From the NCBI RefSeq assembly GCF_039555335.1, contig NC_092639.1, positions 33,078,353 through 33,142,352 on the forward strand: a DNA stretch of 64,000 nucleotides, written 5' to 3'. Positions within the stretch are counted from its first letter, which is position 1. Each line of letters starts with the position of its first letter. Under the pieces are notes generated by a model. That model saw nothing but the letters and a program-made list of their open reading frames with translations. It had not been told where the DNA came from and ran no database searches. The position numbers and the translations under genes were made by a program. Shown here piece by piece: positions 1,831 to 60,590 of the stretch. Source of the DNA: Amphiura filiformis (taxonomy: Eukaryota; Echinodermata; Ophiuroidea; Amphilepidida; Amphiuridae).

Positions 1831-2227
1831 TTTGTGTTATTTTGATCATTTGATCACCAAATGATTCAAAACACTAGAAACAACAGTAAATAGTTGAAAG
1901 ACACAATTTGGTCAACGTTGGGAGACTTCGTCCGTACGGACGGACTCTGTAGCTGCATGTATTTTAATGGAGCTTTATAATTATCAACACTGTGTTTTGT
2001 TGTTGTTTTTCTCGTTTTTGCTAATTGTTTTTATACCTAAAAATTGCAAATTTGTTGACTTTTCAGCAATCTATGATTAATGATAGTGCTTATAACTAGC
2101 CACCTAAAATGTCGGTGTAGGGTTTACGCATTCTAGGACAATTTGAAATTAATAGGGCAAATAATATCTTATTAAAGAGGCAATCAGTAATTTGCTGAAC
2201 GCCTTAAGATTCCTTAATATTACGTGT

Positions 2228-2385
2228 ACAGTGTCTTAAAAATCGAAGCAGAAAAAACCAAAATCATAGGTCATTATATTTTTGTCATCCTACCCTGTCA
2301 CCTGTTTTAACCAGCCAATTACAAATACATATGACCTGTGATTTTTTTTTCACAGGTCTTTCTGCTTCGATTTTTAAGGCACTGT
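2228..2385. mobile_element. Short hairpin MITE
   Basis: About 27-bp terminal inverted repeats (AAAAATCGAAGCAGAAA at left, TTTCTGCTTCGATTTTT at right) enclose 100 bp that itself contains a complementary pair near CATAGGTCAT/ATGACCTGTG. No ORF. Confidence 0.75.
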
Positions 2386-2730
2386 TCACATAATGAAATT
2401 CCATATTTTGTCAATTTGAAACAAACATAAAATATAGGAAATGAAGCATACAAATATCAAACGCGAAAGTAATCCAATAAAATTGACAATTATCATGTAG
2501 ATACAATATATTCTGCTTCAACCTAGAAGTACAAACCAAATCTGTGGCACCGGGGGTCTTTAAATCGCGACGCATAAAGAGCGTGATGCTCCCGGCAAGT
2601 ACAAATCGCGCAGCAGTTGGCGCGCCAAAGAAGCATTTACACACGCATTGCACTGAAATAATTATTATCATACCTCCAGTTTCCCAGTTTTCTATTTACT
2701 TTGTACTTCTGAGTTGACGGACTATAATGA

Positions 2731-2876
2731 AAGACAGAGATTTAAAAAAAAAGACTAGTTCGCGTCTGAAATCCTGACAACTAGACAGTAAATGCCGTAC
2801 TGCGCAGGTCGGCAACCAATCACTGCGCGCCTTTGCCCCGATGTCAGACGCGATTTAGCCTTTTTATCTCTGTCTT
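2731..2876. mobile_element. Short MITE with AAGACAGAGAT termini
   Basis: AAGACAGAGATTTA at left and TTTTTATCTCTGTCTT at right are inverted repeats, and TCGCGTCTGA is repeated inverted internally. It is related to the element in the neurotrophin-like intron at 3,782-4,136. Confidence 0.7.
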
Positions 2877-2904
2877 GCGTTATATACGTAATTTACTTTT
2901 GTTC

Positions 2905-3380
2905 CCATGCATGCGGGGTTGCCAAATTCAGAAACCATACTTAAATGATATCTCCGGCAATCACAAAATTATGCCTAAAATGCCTTAAATATTTATCAAG
3001 CATGAACCACGTGGTTTTATTTAAAACAAACTCATATTGACCATATAAACGAATAAAACTAGCCGGCTCTCAACACGCGATATTCAAAATTCCCGCGCCG
3101 AAATTGTCTAGTGCAATGACGTCATGGTTATTTGTGCTCAATTGTTGCCAGCCTTCATTGTATTACCGGGACGTCCATTGCACTGGACAATAACGTCGCC
3201 CGGGACTTTGAATTCGCGTGCTGAGAGACGACTGTATTAATTCGCTTTTATGGTCAATATTAATTTGTTTCAAATAACACCACGTGATTCGTGATTGATA
3301 ATTAATTTTCTAACATATAAGGCATAATGTTGTGATCGGAGACATCCTTTTTACCATGATTACCCCTACGGTGTTCTCAT
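2905..3380. repeat. Imperfect inverted repeat (foldback) next to the neurotrophin-like terminal exon
   Basis: Two arms of roughly 150-200 bp are imperfect reverse complements: left about 2,940-3,100 (includes CACGTGGTTTTATTTAAAAC and AACTCATATTGACCATA), right about 3,195-3,350 (includes TATGGTCAATATTAATTTG). The central loop contains CpG-rich DNA with TGACGTCA. It lies directly downstream of the stop codon, in the presumed 3' UTR. Outer limits are approximate. Confidence 0.7.
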
Positions 3381-3384
3381 TTTA

Positions 3385-3729
3385 TCATTTAATACCTTGC
3401 ACACCACCTGTGGGTCGTGTATCAAAAGTCACTGCACAAGAGCAACACGTGGGTACAGCTATATGAAGCCATCTATACCTGGTTTGACCTTCCGGTTTAC
3501 CCCAAGCCAATTGCCACTTGTATTCCGGTCTACATTCGCTAGACTTTGTAGCTGTTTTTGTAAAGCCGTGACATTGACTGCCTTCAGCGATACATCGGGT
3601 TATCCAGAAATATTGATTACGACCGACGGCCACCCCATTACTATTAACATCTACGGCTGTGTTTAAAGTCTCCCAGTTACTTCTACTGCTGCATGCGCTT
3701 ATTGGGACGTTGAGCCCAGGTACTTGACG
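3385..3729 (-). CDS. Neurotrophin-like cystine-knot growth factor, terminal exon (mature domain)
   Basis: This 345-bp exon encodes 114 residues and a TGA stop. It begins right after a good minus-strand 3' splice site (TTTATTCACACAG). Residues 13-100 match the layout of the NGF/neurotrophin family: Cys13, a Trp-Glu-Thr-Leu then TAVDV stretch, YFWITRC (residues 40-46, compare YFxETRC in neurotrophins), Cys53 followed by His-Gly, Cys66, then RYRWLHI (84-90) and a terminal Cys-Cys-Ser-Cys (95-98). The six knot cysteines would be 13, 46, 53, 66, 96 and 98. Neurotrophins are secreted dimeric ligands of Trk and p75 receptors; Spaetzle is the related arthropod Toll ligand. Cys95 is extra, and the loop between Cys46 and Cys53 is shorter than in vertebrate NGF. 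It joins in phase 0 to the exon at 4,689-4,934. A minus-strand AATAAA lies at 3,017-3,022, inside an inverted repeat. The family call is strong. Neurotrophin is preferred over Spaetzle because of the YFxxTRC and RWxxI matches. Confidence 0.85.
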   Translation of the reverse strand, partial: RQVPGLNVPISACSSRSNWETLNTAVDVNSNGVAVGRNQYFWITRCIAEGSQCHGFTKTATKSSECRPEYKWQLAWGKPEGQTRYRWLHIAVPTCCSCAVTFDTRPTGGVQGIK

Positions 3730-3781
3730 CTGTGTGAATAAAACATAAATAATTAATGATGCTATAGTTCTATCAGTATTA

Positions 3782-4136
3782 TCGGAGCATGAGATAAAAT
3801 ACTAGTTTGCGTCTGACGTCACTTGTCAATCAAGCTCAGAAACTGTTTGTTGTGATAATTGAAATTTCTGACGGCACTTAGTAAACAGCGTGCCCTGTGG
3901 TTAGGTTTGCCTACATACAAATCATCTTAAAAGTTATATCTTAGTATAAATTGGAAACACTCTTTTCTGAAGTCAAGAGTGCAAAGAAACCTTGCTTTTT
4001 GCCTTGTCCAAGTTTTTCGCCATTTTCTGCGATTCCTTTTTTCTTACGCGCATTTAACCCATCATCGGCTGTGGGGAGTTGATCGTCAGACAGAAACTAT
4101 ACTATAAAAATATAGTGTTTTTATCTCTGGCTCCGA
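3782..4136. mobile_element. MITE-like element in the neurotrophin-like intron
   Basis: About 20-bp imperfect TIRs: TCGGAGCATGAGATAAAA at left and TTTTATCTCTGGCTCCGA at right. It shares TAGTTTGCGTCTGA with the element at 2,731-2,876. No ORF. Confidence 0.6.
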
Positions 4137-4688
4137 CTATCAGAGATTTATTTTTATATTGCTGCAAATGAAGATTACGATAAACGTTACAATTAAATTG
4201 AGATGTCGTTATATTATATGTCCTTGGTTTGCTGTAAGTGCAAGACAGTAATAGGTGGCAATATATGAATTACGACCGATGGTCTTGCGCTCAAAGAAAG
4301 ATACAGATTAGGTTAGATAATCTGTTATGATAGTGAACAGTATTACTCCGTAATATTATGACGTCACGGGTGGTATAAAATGAAATTGCCAAAGATGAGT
4401 CCCCGAAGAGTTCGGATATCTCATTGGTTAAAATTAAACATCAAACAGTTGTGATGGACCTCAATAAGCGATTGACAACTTCATATCCTACAATCCTTGG
4501 GTAGAGTTAGTGACATTTTCGGCGATTTTTGAAATTGATTAATTTTAAATAACATATTTTAAATTTAAAGTTTATTATTGCTGTTGGTCGTAAAACAGAA
4601 AAAATGGTCCTCAAAACCATGCAATATGAATGGTCTTATAAGATACTCTTGAATTAGACCACCCACCTTTAAAATCTATGAAACCTAC

Positions 4689-4934
4689 CTTAAATATATC
4701 TATTTCTTCTCGTTCTTCTTTTGTTATTCTTAATTTATGAAAAGTAGGTATATATGTGGGTTTGGTAGACGTAAAGGCAACTCTCTCTAGACTAGTTCTT
4801 GTGCTAACTGGAAGTTCAAAAAAATCATAAATGCTTGGTGCACCAGTGTCCACTTCTTCATTTAGAGAAGTATGTATACCAATCCATGATTCTGTTGCTG
4901 ACTTAAGTCGACTGTGCGGTCGGTCTCTGAACAT
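4689..4934 (-). CDS. Neurotrophin-like precursor, upstream exon (pro-region)
   Basis: This 246-bp open exon is exactly 82 codons. It is flanked on the minus strand by a 3' splice site (CTTTATTCCATAACAG, ending at 4,935) and a 5' splice site (TTTAAG then GTAGGT, 4,688-4,683). Both ends are phase 0, as is the start of the exon at 3,729, so the two read through a 959-bp intron (3,730-4,688). The sequence is hydrophilic and charged, with an Asp-Phe-Phe-Glu patch near residues 37-40 and a Lys/Glu-rich end (ITKEEREEIDIFK). It has no signal peptide, transmembrane segment or cysteines, which fits a growth-factor propeptide. Splicing places its last Lys next to the first Arg of the next exon, forming a Lys-Arg dibasic site just before the cystine-knot domain. 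The ATG at its first codon is probably not the true start, because a signal-peptide exon should lie further upstream on this strand; none was found. The splice-site logic is strong, and its role as a prodomain is inferred. Confidence 0.68.
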
Positions 4935-5118
4935 CTGTTATGGAATAAAGAAGATTAAGGGATTACAACAGATTAACAGATTACATAAAATAAAGACCAA
5001 CAGATTACATAAAATTTGTTTGTCTGTGAGTTGCAAATTGAAGATCAAAGACTTGAATTGAAAACAGATGTTCTTGAACATCATGCACCAGGGAAAAAAC
5101 GTCAGTAAAAGTGATACA

Positions 5119-6321
5119 GTTAGCAGCCTGGACAACCGATTCTTTAGAAATACTTAGTCGCGCTGAAAGTCGATCGATACATGTTAAAATCAGCACAATT
5201 CAGAGATACACCTTTTTGCTATGAAATTAATTTTCTCGGTCAAATATAAAGCAATATTTGTTTTTTCTTCAGTAAGGTCAGTTAAAAACTTGGTGCTTGG
5301 ATATACATTTTTTTTTACTTTTCCTGGTGTTAAAATTAAGCATCAAATTGTGTCTTTTAGTGTGATATTTTTGATTTTTATAGGCCTTCAGTTCGCACGC
5401 GAGCTTTTTACGGAATTCATTTTTAGCGTCTCAAACTAATATAGTTTGCTAAAGAAAGATATTTCCCACCTCTGTAAAGCACATCGTGTGGGTCTATATA
5501 TTATAGTTTTGTTAGAATTTCCGTTTTTATTTTACCCTTTTTCCTTCATACTCCGAAAATGTCTAACTCAGTGCTTTTATCTCGAGAGCAACCAACAGAA
5601 ATAGTCGATATTTCCTTTGTTGTTTATCCAGGTCAATTTTCCATTGAAAGCAAATTGCCCGACCAGCGATTTGGTAGCCCAAATCCCCAATTGAGTGTTC
5701 TGGTTAAACATGATCAGTAGGAGCGCTATAGGCCTGGGAATTTCTTTGCTATATTGAAGTTCTAGCAACACTGTAGCCATGCCGGTATTCCTATTAAACC
5801 CAGGGATATCGATCCACAATGCTAGTATTAGCCTTAGATTTCACTCGTTGATTTTGAAAAATGGTCAGCCGGCAGTTAAAATAGTGAAATGAAAACGCAA
5901 ATTCTGACAAAACTATGATATATCGCTCACGGTGATGTGCGTTAGAAAGTTGGGGAAAATCCTTCATTAGCGAACTATCTTACTTTGAAAAGCTAAAAGG
6001 TTGATCCAAAAAAAGGCTCGCGGACAGAGTTTAAGCCTATCAAAATCGAAAATTTTACACTAAATGACTAAATTTCACGCCTAAGTTTAACACTAGAATT
6101 TGAAAAAAAATACAGTATCAAGCACTGCAATTTTTCCTGACATTTACTGAAAAAATGAAAATGATTGCTTTTCATTTGGCCGAGAAAATTAATTTTACAT
6201 CGAAAAGGTGTAACTAAAAATTTAGCTCATTTCAACACCAAATTCGATCGTTTGTATTGCCTCATTAAATGACTGAGTGAGCCTTGCCAAACAAAAGAAT
6301 CGGTTGTGCAGGCTGCTAACT
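5119..6321. repeat. Large imperfect foldback element, arms about 430 bp
   Basis: The left arm (about 5,119-5,545, starting AGTTAGCAGCC) and right arm (about 5,870-6,321, ending GGCTGCTAACT) are diverged reverse complements. Shared blocks include AATTAATTTTCTCGG, the GTTAGCAGCC end and CGAAAGTC-like segments. The loop of about 325 bp has no recognisable gene. Frames here are shadows. Confidence 0.75.
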
Positions 6322-7771
6322 GGATATGGTGTCAACAACCGGAACTTTAATTATTTGACATGCTGGATCCACGATTATCTGATAGCATGTAAAACTACGT
6401 TATTTTAAAGAAAAGGTGAACACTGATGGCACTATTTATCTCAAATATGTTTTTCATCTTTACAAGGGGTAGACACTGGTATAATGTCATTAAAACATCA
6501 GACAAAGAGTAACAAATAACAACGACATTTTCAAAAAACTTTTTATCATGAAATGTTAGGAATAATTTATATTATTTGCCTAAATTAAATTTAAAATATA
6601 TGTAAATAGCTCCCGCAATTTGCACACAAATGCGTAGGCCACACACCCGCCCCAGCTCCACCAGGCCGCCCACACGCCCGCAAGCAGGATATGGGGTTGA
6701 CGGTGGCCCGGGCGATTGTGTGACAGTTGTATTTTAAGGAGTGACGTATCTAAACCCAGAACACCTGAACATAATTATTTTGAGTTTTAGCTTTTTCTGT
6801 CTTGTTTCAAGTTAGATTAAGTCGATACTCATTGAGTTGATTAAGTCTGAAACATATGCCGGGAAAATGTCTGGTTATCGTATTTAAGTTGGGTACAAAG
6901 GGTGCATGGTGAGTTTTTTCGAGGGAGTGTCTATTTTCTCCAACTCTCTAAAGCCACGACCTAAAACGTATTGTGTCATTTGTGTGGGTATATACTTTGA
7001 TCAGCTCGTAATCGGCGGGCCTTATAACATCGCGGATTAATATCAATATATTTAATTTCGAAAATTTGCTTGTGACATCTCGCCTGAAGTATCACAAAAT
7101 TATTCATTCAAGTCCTATAATCTGTCTACTTTGTTTATCATGCACAATATAGACCAGACAGGTTAACTGTATCACTCTAAATGTGGGTCTACTTTTCGGC
7201 GTAGTGGTAAGAGCCTAACAATTCTCGCTCCAAATTCCCAAAGTACCGATCTATTCTGTCAACATCTGGTGTGGGTGCCCGTTTTTTGTTTCCAAAGTTT
7301 ATCACCAGATTCAATAACGTAATACCACCTCTTTCACTATCTATGGTAATACCAAGTTTGTCACTTCCAACTTTGCAGATTAATATCGCTCTATTTTTGC
7401 AGCACCGTTATAAGCAAAATATACTGAGAGATTTCTACCCACATGATTTATCTCAGGTTTCTTAAAATAGAACGAAGAGACAATGTTATGTAGACAGATG
7501 GGGCAGATTGTGTATTGGTAATCCTCTAAACTGGTACATACACACCTATTTTATGTAGGTAAGCTTATGCAATGGGAGGAAAATCGGTACAATGTTCCAT
7601 GCCTAGTGCGCCCTTGATTGATAGTGCATACGCGTGTAGCAGGTGCCCCTATTTCATTTTCGCTTTTGCTCGGGCCCCTGAACCCTAAAGGCCCTTGGAC
7701 TTTGTCCACCCTGGTCACCCACTTGCTATGCTTCTGTGCATGGGGTGTGTGGGTGTTGTGTGAAAAGTACG
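6322..7771. other. No gene recognised; one small GC-rich island
   Basis: Mostly AT-rich unique sequence. A GC-rich patch of about 90 bp at 6,630-6,720 reads open in one frame (includes PAPAPPGRPHARKQ) but has no start and no convincing exon boundaries. 7,610-7,760 is also GC-richer and may be flanking repeat. Confidence 0.5.
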
Positions 7772-8095
7772 TTGGTAAATGCCGGCAAATGAGGACCCGT
7801 ACCAGAACACACCCTACACAAACGAGGACGCAGACCTAACCGAGGACGTCCTCAGTTGAACTTACCATACCAGGAGATCGCAAATAGCATAAAAACATGT
7901 TTAAAACGGGTTCTCTGTTGGGGGATATGGACAAGTCCACGGACGGTTGTAAGTATCCAATCCCCCGCACCGTGTGTAAATGAGGTCCACGGTATGTCGA
8001 TTAATTGCTGATGTGTACGTCCTCGGGTAGATAGGATTTAGCAAAAGAGAGGAAAGTTAAAAGTCAAGGTCCTCGTTTGACGGCATTTACAAACA
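7772..8095. mobile_element. MITE-like element with AAATGCCGnCAAA termini
   Basis: GTAAATGCCGGCAAATGAGGACC at left is matched by the reverse complement of GGTCCTCGTTTGACGGCATTTAC at right. Internal GAGGACGTCCTC and ACGTCCTCGGG add self-complementarity. No ORF. Confidence 0.65.
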
Positions 8096-8204
8096 GGGGT
8101 GCGTGGGTGTGGTTTCGTAGATGTGGGGTGGATAATTGTATGGTGTGTGACAAGACTTTACTGCAATGGTATTAACTTTTATTAAACAAAAAAAGGTAAA
8201 CATA

Positions 8205-8666
8205 CAGGTTATAACAAAACAATTATACAATTTAGAAAATAGTATTGGGCAAATGTGTCACTTTTTGATTGTATTGAGTTTTACTTGGTCTTCAAGGTAA
8301 TTTCTCAACTTACTACATAAGCTTTGTTTCAATAAAATCGGTGATATACAAGCAAATATTTGGCCAATTATATGGCCAAAACAGTAGTCCTACACCAGCT
8401 TGGGCCACTTTCGTGTCTCTGTGTAGTAAAAGTGACTGAATTGAGTTGAATCATGAACCAGCTGGTCGGTGCTCTTAAGAAGGGAAAATTTTAACAATGG
8501 TATAGCGTTTGAGTCCTAACTAGTAAAGAAACCAAGAAAAGTAATTCTCTTTACAGGTATTACTGATTCCATTGCATATAACATTGTTGCTGATGTGAGT
8601 ATGATCTCTTATATTTTCTTCTAAAAAGCGAAATTGCAATTGTATAATTTTTTTTGTTACAGTCTG
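8205..8666. mobile_element. Non-autonomous Tc1/mariner-type element, TA-flanked
   Basis: Ends CAGGTTATAACAAAACAATTATACAAT (left) and the reverse complement AATTGTATAATTTTTTTTGTTACAGTCTG (right) lie between TA dinucleotides. The interior is colinear with the longer element at 53,724-54,829, which contains a transposase fragment; here that insert is missing. It is therefore a deletion derivative or a parental MITE. Confidence 0.75.
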
Positions 8667-9260
8667 TATTTTGCAATGGGATGACGACATAGCTAATCTG
8701 TAAAACGTTTTTGTGCTTTCCTAAAATAGAGTGAAAAGCAGGGAGATCGGAGTAAGATTGTGTATGCTCGTTGGTAATCCTCTCAATCGTAAACTATCAA
8801 GTTCATTTGAAATTGTTTGTGATATTCTATTATGAAAGATCCGCGGTTGTCTGCGTTAAGATATAGTGGGTATAGAGTAATCGGTTGAAATTTGTTTGTT
8901 TTTTCATCGTCCTCAATGCCAAACAAATTACACAAACTTGTAAACATATTGACTACCTGTTGTATTCGGCCTTCAAGATAGATTTCTGTACTTATTTGTT
9001 TTGCTATTCTGTTATTTCTAGTTGATATCTATTTGTGATTGACAGAAATAAAATATTGTGCTATTCCATTTAAAATCCGCAAACCCCCTGAAGAAGATTT
9101 CCCTGCCATTTCAATTCCATTCGCACCTTGTGCTCAATCTTACTGTAAATATTTGCTAGTTTTATTTTAAATTCCAGTCGATAATTATTGAAACAATGAT
9201 TCAGTTGAATTGCGCACAATAAGACAATTTTGTTTGGAATTCTAAAATCATCCACACCTT

Positions 9261-9572
9261 GAAGAGCTTGGTTCCAAACCATGTTAAGTCCACAAACACA
9301 TGTTTCTGATAGTAGTTTCAGTTGGATGCACCATTACAAAGCAAACGGTGGATGGATGCACAGTAAGAATACTATGTGAGGTCTTTTGTTCCCAAATGAG
9401 AACAATAGTCTGCATATTGTTAAGCAGTATAGTTGTGGTAAATAATGGCTTGCTGATGGTACAACTCATTGTTGCTTATGTCAAACTTGTCAAAAGTAAT
9501 TGTGATTATATCACACAAGTAAATGAGAAACATGTGGTTGTGGACTAAACATGGTTTGGAAACAAGCTCTTC
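9261..9572. mobile_element. Foldback MITE with about 45-bp TIRs
   Basis: GAAGAGCTTGGTTCCAAACC at left mirrors GGTTTGGAAACAAGCTCTTC at right, and similarity extends to AAACATGT. Internal sequence (GTTCCCAAATGAGAACAATA region) is related to the repeat pair at 22.8-23.0 and 49.6-49.8 kb. The open frame inside is a shadow. Confidence 0.75.
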
Positions 9573-9599
9573 ATTTATGGATGAAACTGATGAAATCTG

Positions 9600-11500
9600 A
9601 AATAATTTAAACTGTCGAATGTAGTTGGAATTTACAAATCTTCCCCAAGGGATCGAAAGTGGATTTCAATTAGAATCGAATCTAAATGTAAAGGACTGGG
9701 TGTTTTATATTTTCTCTGTTTATATGTTCAAAACCAAACAGGTGATATGAAGAAATGATAAAAAGGCGATTTTAACCTACGAATAATTAATGCACTGTAA
9801 ATACAAAATCCTTCGATTATGATGACTGGGATAATGCATGGAACCCAGGAAGGGACTAATACTGGGATCAATAAATCAACTGTACCTCGGGCACCGCTTT
9901 ATTCCCTCTCTTGATGGAGAGTCGTTCTATTTGACCTTTTTGCAATTTTAATTTCATATTAATAAAATGGTAAAATTAAATATCATCAGGTTACCCTCAC
10001 ACATTACGAGGTGGTGTCTTTTGAAGTCATGTAAAATTCTCAATATATTGCATAAAGTGACACGGATGATAGTGTAGTACACCTGGGTAGTATCCTTAAG
10101 GCGAGTATGAGGCGAGGTTGACCTATCGGTGTTCGCATTCAAATATTGAGACAAATAAAGCTTACACACAATAGCAATGGTGTGGGTTCTATAAACGCGA
10201 TCCCAATTAAAGCCCAATCCCAATTGTTATTACTCAAAATTTGTAAATATAAAAGCATTTTGAACACATCTTTTGACCAAAACTCATAATCGACATTCAG
10301 CGGCCACAAATTATTAATTTTCCTAAATTTCGTTACACCTATTTGATTCGAGTAATCTTACTTAATGTTTATAATACCAAGCCAAACTGTTGATGTACTG
10401 CAAGTATTTTGATCCTATAAAGACAAGCTTAATAGGCAGATTAGTTTTCATTTTGACCAGCGATTTTGTTTTTATATGAAATAAGATTTGCTATGTCGAA
10501 TAAGAAATAAGGTTCGCTATGTCGAATCTGACCCTTTACTCTAAAAATTGGGTAAGTTGTTTTTGGGTCAGTCTGTATTGCCGGTTGACGCCGAATGCAG
10601 CAGTTATATTCGAGCGCTATTAAAAGCAGTTCTCATGGAGTGTATTCCACTTTTATTGTTATACCACCACATAGGCTACACCCCCAAGCATAATTATTAT
10701 TTTCTTACCTGTGATTGCCGTGTTGATTCGTTGTTTGAGTAACTACTATACACATATCTTGCCGTAACTATATGGAACAATAAACAAAAGAAAACATCAA
10801 GCAAATTGATTGTACGAAGAAATGCCATTTAAAGAAAGATCATCTATGCTGCGATATACGAGTGGTATTGAGAGTGATGGCAATTGCTGGTAGTATTTCA
10901 ACTCTAGTCAACAAAACTATCAAAGTCATAGGTTAGATGCTTGTCATATTAAGCAGCTTCTCATTATATACGGCTTAGGAATCGAAGATGTGGTGCTTCA
11001 AGTAAATACCAAATCGATATGACTTTCCGATTTTATTTCGGGTTTTTTTTTGGAAAACTTTTAGTATACCATTTGTATACTGTAAACATTTAAAGGTCAT
11101 TGAAAGGTCAACTTCTGTTTAAACTAAGAAATGTTATTAAAATGCAATCGTTATTCTTTGACATTTCAGCGTCTAATAATTAATGACCTTTACTTGTTGT
11201 GATTAATGATCAATAATTTTAACGTAGGAGTTAATCAATAATTATAAAATTTTCATTTACATAGCCTATTTGGAATCAATGGATATTAATTTGTACTAAA
11301 GCAACGTAGATGTACAAACGCGCAAGGTTAAGATAAGAGAAACACACTGTTGCCTGCACTGCATAAACAGTGTTTAGATTTTTTGAAAGAAAAATGTTTA
11401 AAAACGTTTTTCTCAACACTTTTGCAATCGATTGATAAACAAATTACAATGGTAAACATGTTGATAGGAATTGGATGGCTTTGCTTCCAGGAATTAAACA
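9600..11500. other. No gene recognised
   Basis: AT-rich sequence. The only structure noted is a 28-bp direct duplication at about 10,478-10,533 (around GCTATGTCGAAT). Short frames have no family match. Confidence 0.5.
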
Positions 11501-11954: not shown

Positions 11955-12153
11955 CATTATTATTATTATAAGAAAGAATGAACAGTTTACCAACCCAAAG
12001 TGTTACAATTAAACATGACAACAAATAAACACAAATCCCGACCGGCACAACACCCAACTTGAAAAAGGAAGGGAATGTGCCGGCATGGGAATCGAACCCA
12101 CGACCTTCCGATCTCTAGACGGACGCCTTATCCATTAGGCTACCAGCTCCCCC
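11955..12153 (-). mobile_element. tRNA-derived SINE with Arg-like head and (TAA)n tail
   Basis: The minus-strand head at 12,078-12,150 shows CCTAATGGATAAGGC (D-arm), a CTAGAGA anticodon loop and GGGTTCGATTCCC (T-arm). The D and T arms resemble tRNA-Arg, but the loop would give AGA, and acceptor and anticodon stems carry mismatches. About 110 bp of body follows and ends in ATAATAATAATAAT. The layout of head, short body and microsatellite tail is typical of a SINE. Confidence 0.72.
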
Positions 12154-16620: not shown

Positions 16621-17881
16621 TTTCTTGCTTCAGAGACACAGGCAGGCGAGTTAGAAAGATTAATACCCAAACTTGCACAATAAACTACAATGATATATTG
16701 TTTCTTCGAATAACAATATAGTTTGATATATACCAATTTAACCATTCATATCAGATTGTTCTGAGGTTGTTCTGGTACCAGTTTTGTAGTTCTAGACTAT
16801 AACAGTTATGACAGGTATGTCGAGACGCTAAGCATTATACAATATACAACTTATTTTAAAATTACCATATCTGTTGACTGAAACAAATAGTTTGTAAAAT
16901 TGTTCCCCGGCCAATACCCTGAAATGACCCTGTAGTTCTTACTAAATTATATTACTTAACATGTTAAAAATTACTCAGTTACGTGAACACTGATAAATTG
17001 AACATTTTGGTAAATAACATTTTCAAACAAAAAAATACATATTATACTAAAACAAAATAAGCCTCGGCTGCCAAAGAACCCCCTATTAGTGTTTCTACCT
17101 GCACGCTAAAACGCTACCGGCAAAAGACTTGTATGGCTAATTGTATGGCCATCCGTTCTACTAATTTTGGCGAGAAAACATTGACCAACCAGCTAATCCG
17201 AAGTAAGGGTAACCAAAGGAAGATCATGAAGATAGAGGGAGGGGTGGGTGCAACCTCGTCATAATTTATGTTGGTAAACAATAATATTGGTAAAACAATT
17301 TGGTAAAAATTACATTTGAATTTTTAGCCAAAAAAATCCCAATGACATAATATGGAGACTGTTGGTGCTTATTTTACTATCAATGGATAGAGGGGGAGAC
17401 TCATCTTTCGTTTTAAAATCTGTATCAAATTTTGTATTTTCTTCGGACCTTAGACACACTGCCTAAAAATAAACACAATCCAATGTCATGGTGATGTTAG
17501 AGTGTCGTTTTATCCTTCATATATAATTTTGAAAATTGTTTATTTCAATTAAACGGGATGGTAAGTTTGAGACAACTATCCCTATCCATGTCAAAATACG
17601 GAGCTGCTGCAGAGGATGATTTAAGGAAGCCCCATCATGCACTGTAAAATTGTTATCACCAGAGTTTCAACTGCTACTTAACTTTTCAAATCCCATTGAA
17701 CTCTTTGTTGTTTTAGAATTGTGTGTGTGTCATTATTACTTGGTCGATTTCAGAACAAAAGTGATGCATGTATACAGGATAATTCACACCTTCTGTAGAT
17801 AACATAAAATGTGAAATCGACCAGCAAATTAACAGTGTTTTTATTGTAAATATAGCAGTACAAATTCAAATTATACCATGC

Positions 17882-18532
17882 ATGTCTATGCAGTATAGCA
17901 GAGCAGTGGTGTCATGTTACTCATACAGCTCTGCTCACTGCACAGTTAACCCAGTTGGGTGTTGGGTAGTGCTTAAATCATCCTCTGGAGCTGCTGTAAC
18001 TGCTGGCCAGTCTAAAACACTTGTACAGCTGCAACAAAGAGCTTGCAGGATAGTCCTGGGCAGGAATTTTACATCTGAAGCACTGCATGATTGTGACCTG
18101 GAATCTCTCTGTGACAGGAGGGTGGATCATTGTCTGAGGTTTGCCGAGGGAATCTCCAATAATTCTAGAACAAATGATTTACTACCCACCATCAGGGGCA
18201 GGGTTCATGGTCGCAACCCACGCAATGCTCACAAATTCTCCCAGCTTTTTGCCAGAACTTCGCGCTTCCAAGGTAGCCCACCCCCTTTTTTTATTAGTTT
18301 ATTATTAAATGGTTTTCATATTTCCTGCCCAGAGCTGTCCTACTAACTTAATTCACTCAGCCCCTCTCGTTGTTTTTATATTCCATTGTGTTGATTTATA
18401 TGATATTCTATCCTTTTTATATTTTGATATGAAGTATATCATGTATTTTAGTGATGTATTTTTAAACTTTTCATGTAATTCAGCCTCAGGACTGCAATAT
18501 GAATTTAATAAACATTACTACTACTACTATCA
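17882..18532 (+). pseudogene. CR1-like LINE 3' end: ORF2 C-terminal region and tail
   Basis: An open frame of about 150 codons contains the post-RT C-terminal region of CR1/Jockey-type LINE ORF2: SKTLVQLQQRACRIVLG, then a Cys/Asp-rich segment with DRRVDHCLRFAEGIS, then NDLLPTIRGRVHGRNPRN and FARTSRFQGSPPPFF. The catalytic reverse-transcriptase and endonuclease domains are absent, so it is a 5'-truncated dead copy. A 3' UTR of about 200 bp ends AATAAACATT followed by (ACT)n, a typical LINE microsatellite tail. The track-length ORF includes unrelated N-terminal residues. Confidence 0.85.
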
Positions 18533-23802: not shown

Positions 23803-26800
23803 CAATGGACATACTGCAGTTACTGTTCATTTTCCTATACACAATACACAGTACTCTCACCATTGAGATGTGACCTCTACAAACAGTGTATGTTAGAGGT
23901 ATAGGGCATTTCCTAGTTAACGTCACTGTGTGAAAAATAACCGGCCAATATTTATCGTACTCTCTGAAATTCTAGGAAATACAGTTTTGTAACATGTCCT
24001 AAATTTTTAGCTAATTTAGATATTTGGAAATATTCGCACTTTGGTTTTTTAGCAAGTAGGGCACGGCATGGCCTGCAAAATTCCCTGTGTAAATCGAATG
24101 CAACTTTTAGTGACTATCACTCACTTGTAGACCGCTCTCTTCCGAAGGGCATAAACCACTGGACGGATATTTTTTGTACTAGCTTGATGTCAATCAAAAA
24201 TAATGTAAACATTACATGTAGGCTAAAAACTGAGTATGTGGGGCATCTGCAAATGTTCGTACCTCCCTGATATGTAAATGACAGATAACAGCAAAAACAG
24301 CTCCCATATATGTCCATTACTTTGGTCAGTGCAGCGAGCCAGGGGATTTTCTTTATATTGCGTAACAAAAAACAATAAGTACATGGATATTTGATCGCCT
24401 GTAAGTGCAACCTACAATCTGATTAAAGTGACAGTGAGTGGGATATTAATAAAATAAGTATGTCATTGTACACACAAAATAACATACACTTTGGGATATT
24501 AAAAATAAGATACAAATCTCTACAACTATCAAGCTATTTTTATAAAGGCAATATAGAGGCCTACGTTTCTTTTAAGCGTACAAAAACATCCGCTTCAAAT
24601 AAATTCCATAATTTTAAATAATTTTTGAAAACTTGCCAATAATGTAATTTAAAGTCTGTTGATTCGATCAAATTTCTCAACTTAAGATCTTGTAGGATGA
24701 GTAATAGCTTTTATTTCAATTTCTTGACGAATTTGACCTATTTACTTTAGTAAGGTATGACTAATTGCACAATAGATCAAGGAAATGTATCAAGGTAAAA
24801 TAACCCAGATATAGAGGATATAGATTATGAGAGCAAAAATAGATGTACACGTTTCCATTTCAGAAGGCTCAAAATCAAATCAAATTAAGGTTTATAATTA
24901 TAGTGTAGGTTTTTAGACAGCTGTAAATAAATGCTATTGAGTATAGGTGTTAAAGTCGGTGGCACTTTAAAGCATCGAGTGTCAAGTCTTCAATCCCAAA
25001 ATCATAGATTTACCTGTAGATCTTTGAAAACCTCACGCGGAAATCATCGGAAATTGCTCGGAAATGAGAGCACGTGGACTTTGAGCAACCAATCCGATGT
25101 CGTGGTCACCTCAAAATATGTAAACAAACCACTTCAATTTAAAGACCAGCCCTAGCGCGGTTGTTTTATGTGATTATTTATTAGTTTTTCAAACAAAACA
25201 TCGTGAACAACACAAATTTAGACCAATTAGGAAATATGATTTAGGATAAATATTAAATAGCGCCACCAATAGTTTGCATTTAGTTCATAAAAACCCAATT
25301 CTACGTACATACATCAAACAACGGCCATGCTGTTGCTTGAGAAATGTGAACAATATTTTTGACCCAAATTGAAAGATGTGAAAAACATTCTTTGTGGAAA
25401 TTTATTTATTTTTAAACTTCAACGTGTTCATCTACCATTTCCTCGTTTCAAGTTCTCAGATTTAGTTTCTCTTTTGTACAGAAACCAAACATGTCAAAAA
25501 CAGGAGCAGATCTTGTCTGGAAAACACCGAAAGCTGAATTTATACTTCATCACTGAGCGGTAGCGATGAGCCAATAGAGCGCTTTTTGTTGCGTTGGGAA
25601 AAGCGCCTCTACTTGATTGGTCAAATACCCAACGCTTTTCGCTCAGTAATAAATTCAACATTAGTGTGGGAAGGACACACACTAGTGAATAGTACCATAG
25701 AAGTATATAATAGCCTAATGTCATGATTTTGCTAAAGCACATTATCGGCTACATATTCGCCTTTGTGTTATGTTATATGTATGGATTAGATATCAATCAC
25801 ACGCGTACGTACACGTACATGGTGACTGCTGCATTCATAAGCGACATATAAAATTATGAATTAGTTTTTTGTCCTCGGAAAGCAAAACACATACATCTCA
25901 CCTAGGCTCCCCTATCCCCTTACCCATATTACCTCCTCTTCGCCTACACTCCCCAGTGTCTCCTTCTTCTCTCCCTCACCTCTCCCCTAGACTGTACGCT
26001 TCCCTCCCTTACACCCTACTCCAATCCCCATCCTAGCTCTCCTATCCCTTCCTTCCCTCCCTCTTCTAATCCACTCTCTCCCTCTGTTTCTCTTTGTCTC
26101 TCACCTAGCCCCCACGCCCCCCCACACACCCCCCCTGCTCCCCCTCTCGCCCTCTCTCCCCTTTCTCATTTTTTTCGTGCAATAAATAACTTGAATAAAA
26201 GTCAACTAGCCTTCGAGTGTCTATTCTTTTGTAATCTAGGAGGAAATATTTTGATGGCCTTTATTTTTTCACAGGAGCATAATTCAAGGATTATTGGAAC
26301 ATCTACACCACACTTTCAAACGTAGATTGATTTGTTCGATTTCTCTGCTCGTGAATAATGCACTGCGAAATTTAAACACTTCTTTGATCAAGGTAACATC
26401 AAACAATTGATTCTGCAGTCACACGATTATGTAACAAACTGAAATGAAACCAAAACTGCTTTCTACAAGTTTTTAGCTTCTAACAAAGAGTCCAGACAAA
26501 TATATCGGTAATGACGTCAGTCAAGAGCTTAGGCAGGATAATAGGAAACAACGTGACCAAAACCAAAAACTAATCCTAATACTCATAACTTGATACGACC
26601 GAATATATGAAAGTGCCTCTCTCATCCAAAAATGACGTGACAAAGTTGATCGTGATTTAATGATTCCTGTTACACATTTGAACTTCGCACTGAACATTGC
26701 ATGCTTCGGGTTTAATCGGAATGAATCGTTAAAAGGCGAGTTGAAAAGCTCTATAGAGCTTATCCAATCAGGTGGTGTTTACCTTCCAGCCTATTCACCC

Positions 26801-26961
26801 ACCCACCCCACCACCTCCTCTTGGGCTAATTGTAGGACCATGATACGTAATACAAGACATTTAAGCATTCCTTCATGGTCACCTAACCCTCGTATTGTTT
26901 TTGTATGCCATTGATCAACTTTTCAAAAGTGCCGATATTGTCATCAAACTTAGACTTAGTA
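23803..26961 (+). repeat. 3.16-kb tandem duplication, copy 1
   Basis: Every block recurs 3,159 bp downstream. The unit begins CAATGGACATACTGCAG and ends at CAAACTTAGACTTAGTA. It carries a 100-bp hairpin (ACTGAGCG to CGCTCAGT, about 25,551-25,648), a C/T-rich stretch (25,905-26,165) and no supported gene. The 97-, 82- and 74-aa frames shared by both copies are in repeat sequence, show no protein family and have nonsynonymous-type changes equal to noise. Confidence 0.97.
25905..26165 (+). repeat. Polypyrimidine (C/T-rich) tract; twin at 29,064-29,330
   Basis: About 260 bp almost free of G on the plus strand, with CTCCCT/CCCCTTCC runs. The second copy differs in a few lengths, as expected for unstable simple DNA. 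Confidence 0.85.
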
Positions 26962-29900
26962 CAATGGACATACTGCAGTTACTGTTCATTTTCCTATACA
27001 CAATACACAGTACTCTCACCATTGAGATGTGACCTCTACAAACAGTGTATGTTAGAGGTATAGGGCATTTCCTAGTTAACGTCACTGTGTGAAAAATAAC
27101 CGGCCAATATTTATCGTACTCTCTGAAATTCTAGGAAATACAGTTTTGTAACATGTCCTAAATTTTTAGCTAATTTAGATATTTGGAAATATTCGCACTT
27201 TGGTGTTTTGGCAAGTAGGGCACGGCATGGCCTGCAAAATTCCCTGTGTAAATCGAATGCAACTTTTAGTGACTATCACTCACTTGTAGACCGCTCTCTT
27301 CCGAAGGGCATAAACCACTGGACGGATATTTTTTGTACTAGCTTGATGTCAATCAAAAATAATGTAAACATTACATGTAGGCTAAAAACTGAGTATGTGG
27401 GGCATCTGCAAATGTTCGTACCTCCCTGATATGTAAATGACAGATAACAGCAAAAACAGCTCCCATATATGTCCATTACTTTGGTCAGTGCAGCGAGCCA
27501 GGGGATTTTCTTTATATTGCGTAACAAAAAACAATAAGTACATGGATATTTGATCGCCTGTAAGTGCAACCTACAATCTGATTAAAGTGACAGTGAGTGG
27601 GATATTAATAAAATAAGTATGTCATTGTACACACAAAATAACATACACTTTGGGATATTAAAAAGAAGATACAGATCTCTACAACTATCAAGCTATTTTT
27701 ATAAAGGCAATATAGAGGCCTACGTTTCTTTTAAGCGTACAAAAACATCCGCTTCAAATAAATTCCATAATTTTAAATAATTTTTGAAAACTTGCCAATA
27801 ATGTAATTTAAAGTCTGTTGATTCGATCAAATTTCTCAACTTAAGATCTTGTAGGATGAGTAATAGCTTTTATTTCAATTTCTTGACGAATTTGACCTAT
27901 TTACTTTAGTAAGGTATGACTAATTGCACAATAGATCAAGGAAATGTATCAAGGTAAAATAACCCAGATATAGAGGATATAGATTATGAGAGCAAAAATA
28001 GATGTACACGTTTCCATTTCAGAAGGTTCAAAATCAAATCAAATTAAGGTTTATAATTATAGTGTAGGTTTTTAGACAGCTGTAAATAAATGCTATTGAG
28101 TATAGGTGTTAAAGTCGGTGGCACTTTAAAGCATCGAGTGTCAAGTCTTCAATCCCAAAATCATAGATTTACCTGTAGATCTTTGAAAACCTCATGCGGA
28201 AATCATCGGAAATTGCTCGGAAATGAGAGCACGTGGACTTTGAGCAACCAATCCGATGTCGTGGTCACCTCAAAATATGTAAACAAACCACTTCAATTTA
28301 AAGACCAGCCCTAGCGCGGTTGTTTTATGTGATTATTTATTAGTTTTTCAAACAAAACATCGTGAACAACACAAATTTAGACCAATTAGGAAATATGATT
28401 TAGGATAAATATTAAATAGCGCCACCAATAGTTTGCATTTAGTTCATAAAAACCCAATTCTACGTACATACATCAAACAACGGCCATGCTGTTGCTTGAG
28501 AAATGTGTGAACAATATTTTTGACCCAAATTGAAAGATGTGAAAAACATTCTTTGTGGAAATTAATTTATTTTTAAACTTCAACGTGTTCATCTACCATT
28601 TCCTCGTTTCAAGTTCTCAGATTTAGTTTCTCTTTTGTACAGAAACCAAACATGTCAAAAACAGGAGCAGATCTTGTCTGGAAAACACCGAAAGCTGAAT
28701 TTATACTTCATCACTGAGCGGTAGCGATGAGCCAATAGAGCGCTTTTTGTTGCGTTGGGAAAAGCGCCTCTACTTGATTGGTCAAATACCCAACGCTTTT
28801 CGCTCAGTAATAAATTCAACATTAGTGTGGGAAGGACACACACTAGTGAATAGTACCATAGAAGTATATAATAGCCTAATGTCATGATTTTGCTAAAGCA
28901 CATTATCGGCTACATATTCGCCTTTGTGTTATGTTATATGTATGGATTAGATATCAATCACACGCGTACGTACACGTACATGGTGACTGCTGCATTCATA
29001 AGCGACATAAAAAATTATGAATTAGTTTTTTGTCCTCGGAAAGCAAAACACATACATCTCACCTAGGCTCCCCTATCCCCTTACCCATATTACCTCCTCT
29101 TCGCCTACACTCCCCAGTGTCTCCTTCTTCTCTCCCTCACCTCTCCCCTAGACTGTACGCTTCCCTCCCTTACACCCTACTCCAATCCCCATCCTAGCTC
29201 TCCTATCCCCTTCCTTCCCTCCCCTTCTAATCCACTCTCTCCCTCTGTTTCTCTTTGTCTCTCACCTAGCCCCCACGCCCCCCCACACACACACCCGCTC
29301 CCCCTCTCCTCCCTCTCTCTCCCCTTTCTCATTTTTTTTTCGTGCAATAAATAACTTGAATAAAAGTCAACTAGCCTTCGAGTGTCTATTCTTTTGTAAT
29401 CTAGGGAGGAAATATTTTGATGGCCTTTATTTTTTTCACAGGAGCATAATTCAAGGATTATTGGAACATCTACACCACACTTTCAAACGTAGATTGATTT
29501 GTTCGATTTCTCTGCTCGTGAATAATGCACTGCGAAATTTAAACACTTCTTTGATCAAGGTAACATCAAACAATTGATTCTGCAGTCACACGATTATGTA
29601 ACAAACTGAAATGAAACCAAAACTGCTTTCTACAAGTTTTTAGCTTCTAACAAAGAGTCCAGACAAATATATCGGTAATGACGTCAGTCAAGAGCTTAGG
29701 CAGGATAATAGGAAACAACGTGACCAAAACCAAAAACTAATCCTAATACTCATAACTTGATACGACCGAATATATGAAAGTGCCTCTCTCATCCAAAAAT
29801 GACGTGACAAAGTTGATCGTGATTTAATGATTCCTGTTACACATTTGAACTTCGCACTGAACATTGCATGCTTCGGGTTTAATCGGAATGAATCGTTAAA

Positions 29901-30128
29901 GGCGAGTTGAAAAGCTCTATAGAGCTTATCCAATCAGGTGGTGTTTACCTTCCAGCCTATTCACCCACCCACCCCACCACCTCCTCTTGGGCTAATTGTA
30001 GGACCATGATACGTAATACAAGACATTTAAGCATTCCTTCATGGTCACCTAACCCTCGTATTGTTTTTGTATGCCATTGATCAACTTTTCAAAAGTGCCG
30101 ATATTGTCATCAAACTTAGACTTAGTAC
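26962..30128 (+). repeat. 3.16-kb tandem duplication, copy 2
   Basis: Near-identical to copy 1. Visible differences are single substitutions (for example AAATAAG versus AAAGAAG near 27,664), a GTGT insertion at about 28,505 and small length changes in the C/T-rich part. The duplication must be recent or maintained by gene conversion. Ends at CTTAGTACA. Confidence 0.97.
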
Positions 30129-30767
30129 AGTGTTGGAAATGTTTCCCCTCTTTGATTCCTCTTTTCCAAATTAATAAAAATATTACAACACAAGTATTAT
30201 CAACGTACTCCTGACTTTCGAATTTTGTTCCAAATCGTATAAAACCGAAGCATTATGATTTGTCATAAAATTGAGGAATTAATCTAATTACGTGTTGTGG
30301 CCAAAGATAAACCTCAGAACGTTGACAATTGACAAATCTAGAGACGGTGTATTGCGTTCCCTGTGGAAACTGTGACAAGGTAAGTTGGAGAAACGATGCG
30401 AGTTAACGACTTAAAGAACATACTGGCGATATACAAACGACTTGAAGAACACTGCCTTTAACACGTTGTAATAGCATAACACCACAGACACATATGACAT
30501 GATGCTGTCGAAGTGCTCTGCAGAGAAGAAAAACTGTTGCCAAGAGAAGTGAGGGAGGCAGTTTTCATCCAGAAAGAAACCAACCCTACCCTTAACAGGG
30601 ACGGGTCGAGAGCTTTCCAAAATCTATGATACTTTGCTTCTTGAAACACTTGGGGAAACACCGTCCAAAAGGACAAATTGCACTGCCAACTACACCACCC
30701 TACGCCATACATAAATTCCCCTAGCCCCATTTCTATAAAATGAAATGTTCAAAAAAGGAAACTAGTT

Positions 30768-30981: not shown

Positions 30982-31430
30982 CTACAAGCTTTCTCCAACT
31001 ATTGCGATCTTTGCAAGCGAAACCATTTTGTTTGGCTGCAGCATCCCTTCAGTATCTCCTAGGAGGTGCTGGACATACTGTACGTACAGTGTTCGCAGCC
31101 GTCCCGGTTTCCTCTTCCCATATGGTGGAATATAAAGGGCATATTCTTTCACAGGCTCGTTGTCTTCAAGACGCAGTATATGGCCGAGAAATTTGAGTTG
31201 ATGAATCTTGACTCTGGCAACCAGTGGAGTGGTGTTGGTCAGATTGTAGATGGTTTCATTTGGAATCCTATCAACACGCTTGATGTTTAACATGACTTTG
31301 TAGGAAGATGTTACAAAGGCATTGATCTTGTTTTCCGTGGTGATTACCCATAACTCACACCCGTACAGAAAGAAAGTAACACAAGTTGTCTCAAACAGCT
31401 TAATTTTACAACAATATTATGACAAGCAAA
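30982..31430 (-). pseudogene. LINE reverse-transcriptase C-terminal fragment with (ATG)n tail
   Basis: About 145 codons stay open on the minus strand and encode the typical end of a non-LTR retrotransposon ORF2. LYGCELW corresponds to the LYGSETW motif, followed by KINAFVTSSYKVMLNIKRVD, then HQLKFLGHILR (WxGHVxRM motif) and GKRKPGRLRT. The catalytic RT core is missing. A stop is followed by a short 3' end and (ATG)n (30,940-30,965), the usual LINE tail. It differs from the CR1-like tails at 13.5 and 17.9 kb, so a second LINE clade is present. The open frame suggests a fairly young insertion. Confidence 0.82.
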
Positions 31431-33707: not shown

Positions 33708-34201
33708 CAAAAAAGAATCAAGGCATTTTCAATCGAAAATGGGGGGTAAAGGCACACACCTTTAAGCTTACTTTCAGCACTATAAACAAACAAATTCTGA
33801 TTTTATACATAGGATGCTTCAGTTTTTACACACAAATATTTCGTCGAAAACCCTCCCACTTGGCTATTTCTTTCAAAGCTAGTCAGTAATCAATAACACT
33901 CAAAGTTTTAAACTTTTATAGCAGAAAGAGTATAATAATTATTTGGATATTATCTAGTTTAAGTGGCTAAGTGCAACCTAAAATTTGATTGTGGGATATT
34001 AAGAATGAGTATGTTAACAATAAATAACCAGGGCATTGTACAAAATAATGTAACACATCCTTTGCTACCTGAAAATGGAAAATGGAGATGAAGGCACCCA
34101 CCTTTAAGCTTACTTTTAGCACTATAAACAAACACCTCTGATACTAGTGCTGAAAGTCAGCTTATTTGTTGAAATTTCAACCTACGAACATCTTCATAAT
34201 T

Positions 34202-41223: not shown

Positions 41224-44018
41224 GCAGACCAATAGGCTGATTAGCAGATATCGGCAGACAAAAACAAATGAAGCACATCGTATCTTAGCAGACCAATAGG
41301 CTGATTAACAGATATCGGCAGATAAAAACAAATGAAGCACATCGTATCTTAGCAGACCAATAGGCTGATTAACAGATATCGGCAGATAAAAACAAATGAA
41401 GCACATCGTATCTTAGCAGACCAATAGGCTGATTAACAGATATCGGCAGACAAAAACAAATGAAGCACATCGTATCTTAGCAGACCAATAGGCTGATTAA
41501 CAGATATCGGCAGACAAATACAAATGAAGCACATCGTATCTTAGCAGACCAATAGGCTGATTAACAGATATCGGCAGACAAAAACAAATGAAGCACATCG
41601 TATCTTAGCAGACCAATAGGCTGATTAACAGATATCGGCAGACAAAAACAAATGAAGCACATCGTATCTTAGCAGACCAATAGGCTGATTAACAGATATC
41701 GGCAGACAAAAACAAATGAAGCACATCGTATCTTAGCAGACCAATAGGCTGATTAACAGATATCGGCAGATAAAAACAAATGAAGCACATCGTATCTTAG
41801 CAGACCAATAGGCTGATTAACAGATATCGGCAGACAAAAACAAATGAAGCACATCGTATCTTAGCAGACCAATAGGCTGATTAACAGATATCGGCAGACA
41901 AAAACAAATGAAGAACATCGTATCTTAGCAGACCAATAGGCTGATTAACAGATATCGGCAGATAAAAACAAATGAAGCACATCGTATCTTAGCAGACCAA
42001 TAGGCTGATTAACAGATATCGGCAGACAAAAACCAATGAAGCACATCGTATCTTAGCAGACCAATAGGCTGATTAACAGATATCGGCAGACAAAAACAAA
42101 TGAAGCACATCGTATCTTAGCAGACCAATAGGCTGATTAACAGATATCGGCAGATAAAAACAAATGAAGCACATCGTATCTTAGCAGACCAATAGGCTGA
42201 TTAACAGATATCGGCAGATAAAAACAAATGAAGCACATCGTATCTTAGCAGACCAATAGGCTGATTAACAGATATCGGCAGATAAAAATCAAATAGAAGC
42301 ACATCGTATCTTAGCAGACCAATAGGCTGATTAACAGATATCGGCAGACAAAAACCAATGAAGCACATCGTATCTTAGCAGACCAATAGGCTGATTAACA
42401 GATATCGGCAGACAAAAACAAATGAAGCACATCGTATCTTAGCAGACCAATAGGCTGATTAACAGATATCGGCAGACAAAAACCAATGAAGCACATCGTA
42501 TCTTAGCAGACCAATAGGCTGATTAACAGATATCGGCAGACAAAAACCAATGAAGCACATCGTATCTTAGCAGACCAATAGGCTGAACAGAAATCGGCAG
42601 ACAAAAACAAATGAAGCACATCGTATCTTAACAGACCAATAGGCTGATTAACAGATATCTGCAGACAAATCAAATGAAGCACATCGTATCTTAGCAGACC
42701 AATAGACTGAACAGATATCGGCAGACAAAAACAAATGAAGCACATCGTATCTTAGCAGACCAATAGACTGACCAACAGATATCGGCAGACAAAAACAAAT
42801 GAAGCACATCGTATCTTAGCAGACCAATAGACTGACCAACAGATATCGGCAGACAAAAACAAATGAAGCACATCGTATCTTAGCAGACCAATAGGCTGAT
42901 TAACAGATATCGGCAGACAAAAACAAATGAAGAACATCGTATCTTAGCAGACCAATAGGCTGATTAACAGATATCGGCAGATAAAAACAAATGAAGCACA
43001 TCGTATCTTAGCAGACCAATAGCCTATACAGATATCGATAGACAAAAACAAATGAAGCACATCGTATCTTAGCAGACCAATAGGCTGAACAGAAATCGGC
43101 AGACAAAAACAAATGAAGCACATAGTATCTTAGCAGACCAATAGGCTGATTAACAGATATCGGCAGACAAAAACAAATGAAGCACATCGTATCTTAACAG
43201 ACCAATAGGCTGATTAACAGATATCTGCAGACAAATCAAATGAAGCACATCGTATCTTAGCAGACCAATAGACTGAACAGATATCGGCAGACAAAAACAA
43301 ATGAAGCACATCGTATCTTAGCAGACCAATAGACTGACCAACAGATATCGGCAGACAAAAACAAATGAAGCACATCGTATCTTAGCAGACCAATAGACTG
43401 ACCAACAGATATCGGCAGACAAAAACAAATGAAGCACATCGTATCTTAGCAGACCAATAGGCTGATTAACAGATATCGGCAGACAAAAACAAATGAAGAA
43501 CATCGTATCTTAGCAGACCAATAGGCTGATTAACAGATATCGGCAGATAAAAACAAATGAAGCACATCGTATCTTAGCAGACCAATAGCCTATACAGATA
43601 TCGATAGACAAAAACAAATGAAGCACATCGTATCTTAGCAGACCAATAGGCTGAACAGAAATCGGCAGACAAAAACAAATGAAGCACATAGTATCTTAGC
43701 AGACCAATAGCTGAACAGAAATCGGCACTGTGAGACAAAAACAAATGAAGCACATCGTATCTTAGCAGACCAATAGCCTATACAGATATCGATAGACAAA
43801 AACAAATGAAGAACATCGTATCTTAGCAGACCAATAGGCTGAACAGAAATCGGCAGACAAAAACAAATGAAGCACATAGTATCTTAGCAGACCAATAGCT
43901 GAACAGAAATCGGCACTGTGAGACAAAAACAAATGAAGCACATCGTATCTTAGCAGACCAATAGCTGAACAGAAATCGGCACTGTGAGACAAAAACAAAT
44001 GAAGCACATCGTATCTTA
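41224..44018. repeat. 64-bp minisatellite, about 44 units, with 566-bp higher-order repeat
   Basis: The unit contains GCAGACCAATAGGCTGATTA, ACAGATATCGGCAGA and AATGAAGCACATCGTATCTT. The first part (41,224-42,560) is homogeneous at 64 bp. From 42,560 units shorten (loss of ATTA, variants GACTGACCA, GCCTATACAGATATCGATAG). The block 42,629-43,134 is repeated at +566 bp. The last units gain CACTGTGA. Minus-strand frames of 60-97 aa are by-products, since 64 is not a multiple of three. Confidence 0.98.
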
Positions 44019-60104: not shown

Positions 60105-60590
60105 GCTGCACCAACAAGTTTCATGCCCATCTGACAGTTTATACTAATTTGACATCAGATGACCCCTGGTGACCCCAAAATGACCTTCCAAAATTTGGCT
60201 CTAAATGGTGACTGTGCCTACCAAGTTTCATGCCCATACGACAGTTTTTAGTAATTTGACCTCAGATGACCTCGGATGACCCCGAAATGGCCTTCAGAAT
60301 ATTCACAAATATATTCAAAAATTTGACTCTAAATGTTGAATGTAGGCCTACCCCCTAAGTTTCATGCCCATACAACAGTTTTTAGTCATTTGATCTCAGA
60401 TGACCTCTGGGTGACCTCGGATGACCCCAAAATGACCTTCCAAAATTTGGCTCTAAATGTTGACTACTTCCCACCAAGTTTCATGCCCATACGACAGTTT
60501 GTGCTCATTTGACCTCAGATGACCCCTGGGTGACCTTGGATGACCCCAAAATGACCTTCCAAAAATTTGGTCCTGAATGTTGACTGTACC
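60105..60590 (+). repeat. Tandem array, about four imperfect units of 110-130 bp
   Basis: Each unit has AAGTTTCATGCCCATACGACAG, TTTGACCTCAGATGACC, GACCCCAAAATGACCTTCCAA and TTGGCTCTAAATGTTGACT with small duplications of GATGACCC/GGTGACC. Confidence 0.88.

Follow-up and report, generated by a model that had tools for sequence, protein, structure and literature searches.

A putative secreted neurotrophin of a non-canonical, multi-exon type in a repeat-rich stretch of DNA

The minus strand of the window, by which we mean the whole analysed stretch of 64,000 nucleotides, most probably carries a gene encoding a secreted, non-canonical neurotrophin, the precursor of which would be encoded by several exons; the host animal is probably an invertebrate. 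As judged from its sequence, the gene is genuine and somewhat divergent. Its parts are the following, where a slash marks a boundary:

10828..10709, minus strand: probable exon 1, MAFLRTINLLDVFFCLLFHIVTA/RYVYSSYSNNESTRQSQ, signal peptide and start of the prodomain; donor CAG/GTAAGA, phase 0
4935..10708, minus strand: intron 1, 5774 bases; putative link between exons 1 and A, based on phase and position
4934..4689, minus strand: exon A, 82 codons, phase 0, open; prodomain
3730..4688, minus strand: intron 2, 959 bases, between exons A and B
3729..3385, minus strand: exon B, 114 codons plus TGA, phase 0, open; Arg of a Lys-Arg pair, followed by the mature cystine-knot domain, which contains 7 Cys

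Two open phase-0 exons with good splice sites had been proposed in an earlier note on this DNA, which was silent on the strand; both are borne out as exons A and B and lie on the minus strand. Exon A is bordered at its 5′-end by the acceptor TTCCATAACAG/ATG (...CATAACAG/ATG) and at its 3′-end by the donor AAG/GTAGGT, corresponding to GT/AG borders, and exon B is preceded by the acceptor TTATTCACACAG/CGT. The GC content of exon A by codon position is 0.44/0.44/0.21, and a Pfam search with this exon yielded no match. Translation of exon B gives 114 residues, RQVPGLNVPISACSSRSNWETLNTAVDVNSNGVAVGRNQYFWITRCIAEGSQCHGFTKTATKSSECRPEYKWQLAWGKPEGQTRYRWLHIAVPTCCSCAVTFDTRPTGGVQGIK, in which the neurotrophin cystine-knot motifs described in the same note are found as QYFWITRC, YRWLHI and CSC. 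Moreover, a Lys-Arg pair is created across the border between exons A and B, and 11 residues separate its Arg from the first Cys. The putative processing site consists of Lys-Arg only, as P4 is not occupied by Arg.

Considering the Pfam scores, the control sequences, the shuffles with fixed cysteines and a phmmer search of the PDB, the likeness of exon B to the neurotrophin/Spaetzle knot is, at the level of sequence comparison, real but remote. Exon B matched the Pfam Spaetzle model PF16077 with 24.3 bits (E 4.9e-5, profile positions 16-96 of 96) and the Pfam NGF model PF00243 with 23.8 bits (E 5e-5, profile positions 6-108 of 112), both scores missing the gathering score of 27. When exons A and B were joined, the scores were 22.1 for Spaetzle and 21.8 for NGF (E about 2e-4), and the 138-residue stop-to-stop frame gave 23.7 and 23.1, respectively. 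Hence, the HMM comparison of the 114-residue exon supports the earlier proposal of a neurotrophin in part: both families are matched at E about 5e-5, but both scores stay below 27 and are tied. A two-sequence HMM of NGF and BDNF gave 15.5 bits on exon B, which was reached by none of 5000 shuffles with fixed cysteines (best 9.3; hmmsearch gave scores for 4904 of the 5000). In addition, phmmer with the stop-to-stop frame against the PDB returned three distinct sequences up to E 10, namely two BDNF chains (E 0.001, 1b8m, and E 0.0011) as well as a nerve growth factor from venom (E 0.02), and no Spaetzle chain.

That exon B is a chance open frame merely resembling a cystine knot is extremely improbable in the light of these results. 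The Pfam scores under the curated cut-off are in keeping with such a frame, as is the behaviour of the reversed exon B, which drew an unrelated DUF4189 match of 18.4 bits (E 0.0034), so that noise at such composition is not far under the real 24 bits. However, Pfam matches to NGF or Spaetzle were obtained with none of nine controls (one reversed sequence, four free shuffles and four Cys-fixed shuffles), and both the neurotrophin score left unreached by the 5000 shuffles and the phase-matched neighbouring exon, with Lys-Arg exactly at the junction, argue against a chance frame. A further PDB search with a profile of exon B and BDNF returned 18 sequences, all neurotrophin-named except one ovulation-inducing factor, with Spaetzle absent; we discounted it as evidence, because BDNF is part of the profile and the search is thus circular. 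AlphaFold2, run on the single sequence of exon B without an alignment, gave a pLDDT of 34.8, with values below 50 at 114 of 114 residues. Scans of viral and prokaryote DNA collections with exon B revealed no confirmed relatives among 15 and 175 pattern matches, respectively, as expected for an animal gene. Likewise, tblastn detected no further neurotrophin-like exon within the window, the next best match having an E value of 0.79 or worse.

Exon A directly abuts a splice acceptor and shows no signal peptide, and we therefore searched upstream for the 5′-end of the gene. A looser scan for signal-peptide exons gave two matches on the minus strand and six on the plus strand, numbers that do not stand out clearly from chance (1.4 expected per 59 kb, 30 simulations). 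The strict rules demanded an uncharged hydrophobic core, a small residue at -1, a permitted residue at -3 and a near-consensus phase-0 donor; under these rules, 10828..10709 was the sole match on both strands of the window and exceeds chance clearly, simulated DNA having yielded 0.12 such matches per 59 kb on average (60 simulations). Since the strict rules were written after this candidate had appeared in the looser scan, we grade exon 1 as probable. The second minus-strand candidate of the looser scan, 33810..33760 (MYKIRICLFIVLKVSLK), failed the strict rules. The signal-peptide exon thus probably lies at 10828..10709, and the product of exons 1, A and B would comprise 236 residues with one N-x-S sequon (NES), located in exon 1. 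The earlier description as a two-exon gene is consequently probably wrong or at least incomplete, given that exon A starts at an acceptor, has no signal peptide and is preceded by a good candidate exon.

We next consider to which family the mature domain belongs. The comparisons support an assignment of exon B, from its sequence, as a cystine-knot ligand of the neurotrophin superfamily that is closer to neurotrophins than to Spaetzle. In one alignment with PDB chains, which provided all comparison sequences including Drosophila Spaetzle C-106 (4bv4) and Aedes Spz1C (7b1b), exon B is identical to BDNF at 32/92 positions and to NGF at 28/93, compared with 17/87 for Drosophila Spaetzle and 15/85 for Aedes Spz1C. 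The knot cysteines are found in order as Cys 13, 46, 53, 66, 96 and 98, ending in C-x-C, and Cys95 is an extra one. Residues conserved between NGF and exon B include W99 (W87), I102 (I90), Q51 (Q39) and D30 (D27), whereas D105 and A107 are changed to P93 and C95. Exon B thus resembles canonical NGF and BDNF in the six knot cysteines, in W19, W87, I90, Q39 and D27 and in the motif QYF--T-C, and differs from them in the seventh Cys, in Pro93 and in the loop from Cys 1 to Cys 2, which is 10-12 residues shorter. The signature [GSRE]-C-[KRL]-G-[LIVT]-[DE]-x3-[YW]-x-S-x-C matches NGF and fails on exon B; according to Wilson 2009 (PMC2772990), the neurotrophin signature is a vertebrate consensus, most residues of which are retained in Daphnia.

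Three sites are described in PMC2772990 as separating the families: Pro13 occurs in Spz only, Trp130 marks neurotrophins, and position 133 is Ile or Val in neurotrophins versus Phe or Tyr in Spz. The Wilson numbering was placed by our own alignment, anchored at position 18 (NGF Asp30) and at Pro136 with the extra Cys by knot Cys V. With this placement, exon B has Leu22, Trp87 and Ile90 at sites 13, 130 and 133, which are the neurotrophin states, and both Spaetzles have Pro opposite Leu22. Drosophila Spaetzle has Phe at site 133 and Aedes Spz1C has Val; site 133 therefore does not separate the families cleanly, while the other two sites separate the five aligned sequences.

These data bear on the alternative that the gene encodes a Spaetzle-type Toll ligand, that is, a disulfide-linked dimer of the CCxC kind which activates Toll after proteolytic removal of its prodomain. 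We regard this as unlikely, although several features agree with it. The Pfam Spaetzle score is level with that for NGF (24.3 versus 23.8), the loop from Cys 1 to Cys 2 is shorter than in NGF, and several basic NGF positions are gone. The cysteine spacing of exon B, 32-6-12-28-0-1, is nearer to that of Drosophila Spaetzle (36-6-13-29-0-1) than to that of NGF (42-9-11-27-1), and the six-residue distance from Cys 2 to Cys 3 as well as the P-x-C-C-x-C ending match Drosophila Spaetzle; Aedes Spz1C, which has an additional Cys, shares this ending but differs in spacing (36-8-2-5-28-0-1). Moreover, PTCCSC agrees with Spaetzle (PF16077) in Pro136 and in an extra Cys by knot Cys V, the latter being a feature of some paralogues. 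In contrast, the identities given above fall well to the side of BDNF, a mini-model built from the two Spaetzles scored 5.7 bits on exon B and was equalled or exceeded by 39 of 5000 shuffles, and no Spaetzle chain was retrieved from the PDB up to E 10. Furthermore, exon B lacks Pro13, has Trp87 at site 130 and carries at 133 the non-aromatic Ile90, the latter argument being qualified by the Val of Aedes Spz1C. According to PMC2772990, deuterostomes had by then yielded no Spz genes. The earlier designation as a bona fide neurotrophin accordingly holds with regard to the superfamily knot and to the greater proximity to neurotrophins in identity and sites; it does not extend to the Pfam scores, which are tied below 27, or to the strict signature.

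Canonical neurotrophin precursors, those of vertebrates and Sp-NT, are encoded in one exon according to PMC2772990, whereas the precursor of the sea urchin Sp-NT2 is multi-exon; Sp-NT2 forms the ambulacrarian NT2 group together with Sk-NTa and Sk-NTb of the acorn worm. The sequence of the present gene shows a minimum of two coding exons, their number probably being three, and in this respect the gene resembles Sp-NT2. The same paper reports for Sp-NT2 Pro136 and an extra Cys beside knot Cys V, the extra Cys being shared by Sk-NTb of the acorn worm. Correspondingly, exon B ends in P-T-C-C-S-C, where P93, C95 and C96 agree with Pro136 and the extra Cys by knot Cys V, and the sites that separate the families are in the neurotrophin state, as in the NT2 group. 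At position 18 (NGF Asp30), for which Asn is reported in that group, exon B has Asp27. This comparison was made with feature descriptions published in PMC2772990. From its sequence, the gene looks like a member of the published NT2-type branch in most of the tested features. SkNTa, SkNTb and SpNT2 were grouped again in a later study, with basal nodes lacking strong support (Lauri 2016, PMC4812194). Pro136 is also present in some protostome neurotrophins, as stated in PMC2772990, and the NT2-like features are therefore no proof of an ambulacrarian host. With respect to ancestry, passages of PMC7535936 refer to one neurotrophin gene in the bilaterian ancestor, without additional unidentified genes, and PMC4812194 treats the number of ancestral neurotrophin paralogues as unsettled; these statements neither help nor exclude the present gene.

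The gene sits among repeats, and three elements lie within it or in its vicinity:

5182..6237, within the proposed intron 1: inverted-repeat element, arms of about 360 bases, 75% alike
3016..3021, minus strand: AATAAA, poly(A)-signal-like hexamer, the sole one between 2000 and 3385 on the minus strand; putative use as poly(A) signal
2943..3350, no strand assigned: palindromic fold-back repeat (self-BLAST, 73% inverted self-match), which sets in 34 bases past the stop codon and includes the AATAAA

As the fold-back element holds the sole AATAAA in the interval 2000-3385, the 3′-end of the transcript, including its UTR and poly(A) signal, may be transposon-derived. The repeat surroundings and the palindromic element only 34 bases past the stop codon would also suit a decayed or unexpressed neurotrophin copy, a pseudogene embedded in repeat DNA. 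Given that neither exon contains a stop, that the phases match, that the splice sites are GT/AG and that all six of the six knot cysteines are retained, we consider such decay highly improbable; moreover, the presence of introns shows that the gene is not a processed copy.

The remainder of the window is likewise repeat-rich. Pfam searches on 14 other stretches (13 among 178 frames of at least 62 residues with low-complexity frames excluded, plus 25906..26325 outside them) recognised no other host gene. The sole match above cut-off among these stretches was a DUF4817 helix-turn-helix domain at 54099-54374 on the plus strand (32.7 bits versus a cut-off of 22.6), which we take to be typical of the N-terminus of transposases. 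The open frames 17783-18343 (plus strand) and 30985-31416 (minus strand) had no Pfam match and resemble by eye what are presumably C-terminal remnants of non-LTR reverse transcriptases. We further observed a head-to-tail duplication of about 3.17 kb with 99.2% identity (23803-26966 and 26962-30132), which is either recent or an assembly artefact, and a satellite-like array at 41224-44018 with 44 copies of a 64-base unit and 94% matches. A tandem repeat with a 119-base unit, rich in TGACC/GATGACCCC, is located at 60357-60585; tandem repeats of this TGACC-rich kind are common in marine invertebrates, which gives a weak clue to the host. ARAGORN identified a tRNA-Ser (AGA) at 12076-12149 on the minus strand, which Rfam also scored as tRNA, its one match in the window.

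Provided that the gene encodes a secreted neurotrophin as proposed, the 236-residue precursor would enter the secretory pathway, its prodomain would be N-glycosylated, and it would be cleaved after the Lys-Arg pair where exon A meets exon B. The mature domain would then dimerise, and the dimer would probably be locked by a disulfide bond involving the seventh Cys, which is Cys95 or Cys96 in PTCCSC; a disulfide-linked dimer formed through the extra Cys has been proposed for such proteins (PMC2772990). The dimer would serve as a ligand outside the cell, its most likely receptor being of the Trk or p75 type on neurons. NGF Arg103, Lys32, Lys34 and Lys95, which we take to be Trk and p75 contacts, correspond to Ala, Asn, Asn and Gln in exon B. 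As these putative contact residues are replaced, the choice of receptor cannot be assumed; a Trk or p75 receptor is the default that follows from family membership, and Toll is the alternative. A related and rather improbable view is that of an ancestral-like or hybrid ligand in a non-arthropod animal, which would be of neurotrophin descent, form a Spaetzle-like covalent dimer, have lost several basic contact positions and most of the NGF loop between Cys 1 and 2, and therefore signal via Toll or via Toll and Trk. If this were true, the gene would preserve the connection of neurotrophins with Spaetzles.

Neurotrophins and Spaetzles are regarded as close families with different receptors. The NT2-type branch is already published, and the present gene would be one more copy of it. 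In PMC2772990 and PMC4812194, the NT2-type genes, which mix features of both families, stem from a sea urchin and an acorn worm, and with only these two species represented, a further intact copy is a data point on the split between neurotrophins and Spaetzles and on receptor use. Moreover, the gene illustrates how such neurotrophins slip under routine family cut-offs.
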